NCBI GenBank assembly: GCA_017404145.1
Contig: JAFRCW010000045.1
Location: 1-64,000, forward strand
Direction of reading: 5' to 3'
DNA: 64,000 nt
Source: Ruminococcus sp.
GTDB taxonomy: Bacteria; Bacillota; Clostridia; Oscillospirales; Acutalibacteraceae
The notes under the pieces are model-generated. The model was not told where the DNA came from. It saw nothing but the letters and a program-made list of their open reading frames with translations, and did no database searches. Made by a program: the position numbers and the translations under genes. Shown here piece after piece: positions 34,240 through 35,323 of the stretch. The first letter of the stretch is position 1; each line of letters begins with the position of its first letter.

Positions 34240-34719
34240 TCACACCTCACTTATCTCTTTCTTGAGCTTTTTGACAGTGAAAGCGGCAACCAACAGCTCG
34301 ATCATCACGACCAAATTTGTCACCTCCACAATAGTGGAAACCGTCAATTCCAGCAGAGACTCATCCGGGTTCGAGCCGAAAATGAGCAAAAGAAGAGATC
34401 CCAGAGAAGAGAGCGCAATCAGAATAGCAAAAACGATATAAGCATAACCCTTTTTCTTTCCGAAGCCCTCCGCACGGGCGGACAGACCGACAAACAAGCG
34501 TATTCCGAAATCGGTCAGCACAAGAAATGCCAAAATCACGTAAACGATGACCTTGACCAACAGTTCGTTCGGCATTTTTTCAAACATCTGTTCCCTCATA
34601 TCGTTTCTGAGAATCAGAAGCAAGAACGTTTTCAACACGCTCCATAATCCGAACGCGATCACACCCAAACCGCTGACCGTCAGCAGATTTTGATAACGCC
34701 TCATTTTCACTTCTTTCAT
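34240..34719 (-). CDS. Four-helix membrane protein of unknown function
   Basis: A 159-residue protein with four hydrophobic segments (about residues 12-30, 50-70, 85-110 and 125-145) and the charged C terminus VKKLKKEISEV. I do not recognise the family. AAGGAG lies 7 nt before the ATG (MKEVKMRRY). It is the first gene of a unit with the DUF6765 and DUF308 genes, with 2-nt and 4-nt junctions. Directly upstream begins the first of the two structured repeats, whose left end is only 13 bp from the start codon and includes part of the ribosome-site region. Confidence 0.72.
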   Translation of the reverse strand: MKEVKMRRYQNLLTVSGLGVIAFGLWSVLKTFLLLILRNDMREQMFEKMPNELLVKVIVYVILAFLVLTDFGIRLFVGLSARAEGFGKKKGYAYIVFAILIALSSLGSLLLLIFGSNPDESLLELTVSTIVEVTNLVVMIELLVAAFTVKKLKKEISEV

Positions 34720-34731
34720 ATCTTCTCTCCT

Positions 34732-35009
34732 TAACCAACCGAGAACAAATCCGAATCTGGTTTTGACGGGCATATTTGCCCCCGCTCATTGATAAAATCC
34801 TTGCGAACCCGTCAGGGTTCGCTGCGGTTTTGCCGCGATCGGACGCAAATCTGCTCCGGCAAAACTCCAAAGGACTGGAAATGAGCAAGATTTCGTGCAA
34901 GTCTCGGTGCAGAAAGTGCAGGCAGGCTGGCGCCTGCCAAGGTTGATAAGCCGAGAATTGCCGAAATATTGCCATTTGCAGCGGGTTCGGATTTATTCTC
35001 GGTTGGTTA
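34732..35009. repeat. Structured repeat element, copy 1 (278 bp)
   Basis: This and the next copy fill a 604-bp gene-free gap. Outer arms TAACCAACCGAGAACAAATC (34732 on) and the inverted GGATTTATTCTCGGTTGGTTA (to 35009) pair over about 26 bp. Inside is a conserved core (34794-34856) containing hairpin GCGAACCC-GTCA-GGGTTCGC (34803-34822), then a second hairpin GGCAGGC/GCCTGCC near 34921-34938 and the words CTCGGTGCAGA and GATAAGCCGA. Copy 2 shares core and words but has different arms. No coding capacity seen. Likely a structured RNA or a mobile hairpin element. Confidence 0.75.
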
Positions 35010-35285
35010 GGATGGCGAGAGTCGAACCTCAATCGGTTTTTAGCGGCATGTTTTAGCCTACTCTTCGTCAAAATCCTCGTGAATACGTCAGTATTCACTG
35101 TGGTTTTTCCTCGATTAGACATAAAATCTGCTCTCTAAAAACTGCTTCGCACCGAGAATGAGATATTTTTCATGGATTTCTCGGTGCAGAGGAGGAGTAA
35201 CCCTGACGGGTTGCGATCGACGATAAGCCGATAAAGACTGAAAAAGACTCATTATCGGCGGTTGGGGTTCAACTCTCGCCATCCT
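35009..35285. repeat. Structured repeat element, copy 2 (277 bp)
   Basis: Directly abuts copy 1. Outer arms AGGATGGCGAGAGTCGAACC and GGTTCAACTCTCGCCATCCT pair over 20 bp with one mismatch. The core (35070-35133) aligns with copy 1 and its hairpin is GTGAATAC-GTCA-GTATTCAC (35079-35098): same loop, three base pairs changed on both sides. A further stem, ACCGAGA/TCTCGGT, follows. The last bases are 38 bp from the end of the glycerophosphodiesterase gene. Confidence 0.75.
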
Positions 35286-35323
35286 ATCCGGCGCATATTA
35301 CAAACGATTATCGGAAGGAACTC

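Follow-up and report, generated by a model that had tools for sequence, protein, structure and literature searches.

A probable MITE-like foldback element with a covarying fold, present as a head-to-tail pair in Ruminococcus and spread over at least 58 genera

The window analysed here, a stretch of 64,000 nucleotides of DNA from Ruminococcus sp., carries two head-to-tail units of 278 and 279 nt (both terminal TAs counted), each closed by an outer helix of 25–26 bp (Table 1). A single TA is common to both, probably because insertion of one copy used the TA that flanked the other. Inside, the two units align without gaps over 67 nt at 70% identity, and the words CTCGGTGCAGA and GATAAGCCGA recur in both in the same order. 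Their inner hairpins, GCGAACCC-GTCA-GGGTTCGC in copy 1 and GTGAATAC-GTCA-GTATTCAC in copy 2, have the same loop and differ by exactly three pairs, each altered on both sides. The initial annotation of this DNA had pointed out the nearly equal head-to-tail units, their closing helices, the aligned core with its two words and the paired changes around a constant GTCA loop, and all were verified. Compared with shuffled sequences, single-strand folding gave z = -13.6 for copy 1 and -8.5 for copy 2 with DNA parameters, and -11.0 for copy 1 with RNA parameters; no shuffle equalled the folding of either copy. Given these z-scores and the homologous copies elsewhere in the genome, the resemblance and the folding of the two copies are far beyond chance. 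A 180-aa open frame on the minus strand (34580–35122 of the window) passes through both copies and could be annotated as a gene by automatic pipelines. We rejected it as a chance frame because variability over the family does not depend on codon phase; in the family copies frames are not kept open either, which speaks against any coding function.

Table 1. Features of the two element copies, with positions in the window
Feature	Position	Strand	Basis
Copy 1, complete element with TA at both ends	34732..35009	+	TA...TA ends; 99% identical copy C12:52160-52437 in the same genome
Copy 1 left TA	34732..34733	.	TA-to-TA ends
Copy 1 P1 left arm (terminal inverted repeat, tip ACCAACCGAGAA)	34734..34759	+	Covarying pairs 34740-35000, 34741-34999, 34742-34998, 34758-34983
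Copy 1 P2 arm, long irregular hairpin	34760..34865	+	Folding, covariation; CM R1 match 34760-34874
Copy 1 P2 apical hairpin GCGAACCC-GTCA-GGGTTCGC	34803..34822	+	34804-34821 and 34805-34820 covary
Copy 1 mini hairpin TCC-AAA-GGA between arms	34866..34874	+	Genus structure and folding
Copy 1 P3 arm	34875..34981	+	34876-34980, 34877-34979, 34878-34978, 34882-34974, 34890-34967 covary; folding
Copy 1 P3 apical module: conserved TGC(A/G)GA / GA(C/T)AAG internal loop and GGCAGGCTGGCGCCTGCC hairpin	34906..34953	+	Also in second element family
Copy 1 P1 right arm	34982..35007	+	Folding and covariation
TA common to both copies	35008..35009	.	Sequence; TA duplication demonstrated at other copies
Copy 2, complete element with TA at both ends, different subtype	35008..35286	+	Relatives L087, L096, L102 in other genomes
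Copy 2 P1 left arm (tip GGATGGCGAGAG)	35010..35035	+	Folding
Copy 2 P2 arm	35036..35142	+	CM R1 match 35036-35151; folding
Copy 2 P2 apical hairpin GTGAATAC-GTCA-GTATTCAC	35079..35098	+	Sequence
Copy 2 mini hairpin TGC-TTC-GCA	35143..35151	+	Genus structure and folding
Copy 2 P3 arm	35152..35259	+	Genus structure and folding
Copy 2 P1 right arm	35260..35284	+	Folding
Copy 2 right TA	35285..35286	.	TA-to-TA ends

The genome that contains the window has five further relatives of these copies. One is 99% identical to copy 1 (C12:52160), others stand at 93%, 87% and about 77%, and among the further copies is a form related to copy 2 with an internal deletion. Matches occur in 28 of 100 genomes of the genus, and nine near-identical copies were counted in one genome. 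A covariance-model search beyond the window, as suggested in the initial annotation and run with a model built on the P2 arm, showed that, of 300 genomes from the taxonomic family, 106 carry the element and that these hits reach 58 of 135 genera; the best E value outside the genus was 1e-22, and the copy numbers per genome are lower bounds (12 candidates scored per genome). A pattern scan of GTDB genomes yielded 109 stretches; the rumen and gut MAGs they come from bear labels such as Ruminococcus, Clostridia and Clostridiales, and in one case Veillonellaceae. Across genera, complete elements measure 275–279 bp, with identity averaging 62%. Spread on phages or plasmids was rejected, with no copy in PLSDB or INPHARED and one in IMG/VR. 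This one copy (L374:646-924, on a 5,030-base contig) sits in a tailed-phage head cassette, with an apparent portal gene on one side and an apparent protease gene on the other, and suggests that phages or prophages may carry the element. Many MAG contigs (e.g., L155, L160, L196, L210) end inside the element, at the conserved apex of P2. Because of these internal contig ends, assemblies are broken and copy numbers underestimated, and MAG annotators should mask the element.

In the fold, helix P1 closes the element, and within it stand two long arms, P2 and P3, separated by a mini hairpin. In 44 copies from the genus, 94.8% of the cells at 86 core pairs are paired, two-sided changes affect 49 pairs, and neither any of 500 shuffles nor any slid register came near the real structure on covariation measures. 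The same fold and length are found in 63 sequences from the whole family (mean identity 62%, minimum 46%). On these we applied a home-made covariation test on the R-scape idea, whose null places substitutions on a tree. About 36,000 column pairs entered the test and 19 were significant at E<0.05; 18 of these fall exactly in the predicted structure, spread over P1, P2 and P3, and the nineteenth (34911-34947) lies inside the P3 internal loop and is present in the genus structure. On the genus alone, where the same phylogeny-aware test has no power, it gave no significant pair; the seven top-ranked co-changing pairs are all helix pairs. The conserved structure with compensatory change that had been proposed from two copies is thus borne out in much larger alignments. 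Unpaired residues are fixed at 90–100% over more than 20 genera (e.g., 34798, 34801, 34823, 34831, 34834), and partners separated by 90–260 nt show covariation as strong as that of the short hairpin. Many separate pairs interchange all four Watson-Crick combinations while the bulges are kept. This last behaviour would be unusual for recognition sites and makes it quite unlikely that P2 and P3 are paired inverted protein-binding sites in linear double-stranded DNA, with half-sites co-evolving with a dimeric protein, even if the terminal inverted repeats (TIRs) are inverted sites in any case and the P3 apical module recurs in a second family with other TIRs, which a binding site could also do. 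About 100 nt of extra sequence occupy the P3 apex in L005 (own genome, C16), L077–L079 and L083, so that this apex tolerates insertions. On the P3 arm, the P2 model also gives weak matches to the opposite strand (e.g., L049:1618-1733, L057:1520-1636), which may mean that the element arose by inverted duplication.

That the element is mobile is near certain. Nearly all complete copies have TA at both ends, and joined flanks identified empty sites: L057, L056 and L040 carry the element where relatives have a single TA without it (L057/L125, with 93% flank identity; L056/L126; and L040/L128-L129, which rests on more diverged relatives with another base in place of the T of this TA). A 20-nt end remnant survives in a relative at one site (L127). 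The dispersed copies, the TA duplication and the empty sites confirm the initial idea of a mobilised hairpin repeat. The target, compared over 104 sites, is symmetric, W-S-S-T-TA-A-S-S-W, with a T before and an A after the target TA and with G/C enriched at positions -3, -2, +2 and +3 (p 4e-6 to 1e-10). Such a target points to an enzyme that would act symmetrically on double-stranded DNA. Transposition of single-stranded DNA of the IS200/IS605 type, which entails no target duplication and an asymmetric target, does not agree with the TA duplication and the symmetric target.

The outer tips of copies 1 and 2 differ, and the initial annotation had considered the outer helices unrelated and argued against a MITE on the grounds that it would normally share its ends. 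Pairwise, for these two copies, the helices do look unrelated; yet other copies bridge them by many intermediate tips (e.g., GGATGGCGAGAG, GGATAGCGGGAA, AGGTAACGGGAG, GGGTAACAGGAG, GGGTGACAGGAA, GGGTGACTGTAA), and one tip occurs on both core types, with a copy 2 core in L096 and a copy 1 core in L045. Changes in the tips affect both P1 arms together. Ends are shared within a subfamily and drift gradually between subfamilies, and the argument against a MITE does not stand. With intermediates between the tips and joint change of the two arms, the ends belong to a MITE family that has diverged. Many copies with identical ends and target duplications had been named as the mark of a plain MITE: the duplications exist, as TA, but the ends drift between subfamilies. 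Once the intermediate tips emerged, capture of a new tip from the flank by each copy was abandoned as an explanation. One chimera, L109 (G017:C35), joins the right part of a type 1 core to the left part of a type 2 core and retains palindromic outer tips.

The element shows the defining features of the bacterial TA-MITE class (Correia/ERIC/RUP), its larger size and branched shape apart, and would be a variant of that class. Like Correia/NEMIS, ERIC/IRU and RUP repeats (PMC2229807), it is non-autonomous, non-coding and intergenic, with TIRs, 5'-TA-3' ends, target duplication and pairing of the 5' and 3' ends. It differs from them in its 276 bp, against about 100–200 bp for the class (a size criterion that is descriptive, not mechanistic), in its two long arms and mini hairpin instead of one stem-loop, in tips that drift while the core is kept, in its presence in at least 58 genera, and in that no IS partner was found. 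The bcr1/BCR repeats of the Bacillus cereus group (PMC6542083) are likewise dispersed, are confined to one bacterial group, measure 100–400 bp and show mobile features, but their mobility is tied to TTTAT repeats and possibly to site-specific recombination where the element has TA duplication and long TIRs. The CIR repeats of Caulobacter and Brucella (PMC2229807) are also small, with two conserved hairpin arms; however, these are joined by a linker, without TIR or end closure. Integron attC sites (PMC3053210, PMC6393395) are imperfect palindromes of diverse sequence and shared features that are recombined as folded single-stranded DNA, the enzyme reading extrahelical bases. The element resembles them in its conserved fold, variable sequence and retained unpaired bases, and might by analogy work alike through folding at the DNA level, without being a member: attC sites belong to gene cassettes inserted at attI by a tyrosine recombinase acting on the bottom strand, whereas the element goes into TA at a symmetric target. 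We found no earlier description of it in the open-licence literature searched.

We consider that the two units are probably copies of a non-autonomous, MITE-like transposable element that inserts at TA, is mobilised in trans and keeps its fold at the DNA level. An enzyme supplied in trans would bind the P1 terminal inverted repeats and place the element in double-stranded DNA at a TA, which is duplicated. Its gene-less body of 276 bp is preserved as an imperfect foldback of constant size, with pairing that would be maintained in DNA, in an extruded or single-stranded folded form, and not in an RNA made from one strand. The fold would most likely aid propagation of the element by offering the mobilising or replicating machinery bulges and loops that are conserved.

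Structural covariation is usually taken as proof of a functional RNA, and a structured noncoding RNA family had been the other proposal of the initial annotation. In a functional RNA, G-U pairs are tolerated on the working strand and A-C pairs are not. In the family set the element has 200 G-U to 160 A-C cells, against 200:13 in the tmRNA of the same genus, and states common to at least five sequences number 10 G-U to 12 A-C (Fisher test on states, p = 0.003); dead copies, as they decay, bring symmetric noise into this test. The consensus of the two strands folds equally well (energies of -178 and -177), copies lie between genes whose orientations are unbiased (16/14/10/8), and Rfam returned no match at the gathering threshold nor at E<=5. 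Nearly equal G-U and A-C, equal folding of the strands, random orientation and the lack of a coding frame favour pairing at the DNA level, and a DNA-level foldback is likely but unproven. Against it counts the genus, where non-Watson-Crick states inherited by at least five copies lean 8 to 1 towards G-U, as in an RNA. This lean, the U-G majority at four pairs, the strong covariation and invariant unpaired residues such as those of the TGC(A/G)GA/GA(C/T)AAG internal loop would all suit a mobile structured noncoding RNA, transcribed and functional as a folded plus strand, with the TIRs as its closing helix. The family-wide G-U and A-C counts, the symmetry of the strands, the unbiased orientation and the empty Rfam search nevertheless make such an RNA unlikely; folding with DNA or RNA parameters did not discriminate between the two readings. 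The intergenic position would also fit a cis-regulatory RNA, an attenuator or terminator of the neighbouring genes, but with no bias in gene orientation, and with sites that vary between species and are often empty, this is highly improbable.

The complementarity might instead be a by-product of replication, template switching between inverted repeats homogenising the hairpin arms, so that paired changes would come about in a single step without any selection on the fold. Homogenisation of inverted-repeat arms by this process is documented (PMC7202029, PMC8604942), and it predicts as many G-U as A-C states, in line with the observation. Homogenisation should, however, erase bulges, whereas the element keeps its unpaired residues nearly invariant across genera; the fixed total length and the strong covariation of distant pairs also argue against it, and we view this explanation as doubtful, though worth weighing. 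We thus have a gene-less mobile element of at least 58 genera with strong covariation and almost no preference for G-U, a combination for which the standard inference from covariation to RNA would mislead. It provides a natural data set for asking whether DNA shape is selected or made by template switching.

To return to the MITE-like reading, the element has the TA duplication and the long TIRs usually seen in IS630 derivatives, and the pneumococcal RUP has been attributed to IS630-Spn1 (PMC2229807). An ordinary MITE of a resident IS630/Tc1-mariner transposase is nonetheless improbable: no DDE_3 (PF13358, IS630) match came from 44 element-bearing genomes (14 within the genus, 30 outside it) with a control search positive elsewhere, a result to be read knowing that draft MAG assemblies lose repeats and that absence of a transposase there is not proof. 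Tip pairs 1–4 kb apart, as expected of an autonomous copy, were sought in the genomes examined and none surrounded a gene-sized insert; unpaired tips were truncated copies or remnants. DDE_Tnp_1 (IS4/IS5) is encoded by six genes in 5 of 10 genomes, and was discarded as a partner because none has matching TIRs; one tip that lies close to a hit is part of a nearby element. With no IS630 transposase found in this bacterial family, the agent that moves a TA-inserting element becomes a question in itself. A rather unlikely answer is that a non-IS630 enzyme recognises the element as folded DNA and yet inserts it into double-stranded TA targets; if true, this would be a new mobilisation system, with shape, not sequence, as the conserved signal. 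Two identical, internally deleted copies of 158 bp (L354, L355) occupy unrelated sites, which suggests that the TIRs suffice in cis and that an intact core is not strictly required, and makes a role of the fold in transposition less secure. Mini palindromes of 33–59 bp, consisting mainly of TIRs, were also seen (L356/L357, L364, L371, L121, L123, L147).

A second family of TA-flanked hairpins, 155–157 bp long and with the TIR TACTA...TAGTA, is present in the same genome as the window (L010 C39:31693, L011 C2:33397, L014 C54:12972, L015 C43:33347, L017 C36:8487, L018 C5:1802). It shares with the window element only the P3 apical module (GCAGGCAGGCTGGCGCCTGTCAAG and its flanks), and modules seem to move between element families. 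In L115 (G083:C4), an element of this second family, with ACTAAT/ATTAGT ends, is nested in a remnant of the first.
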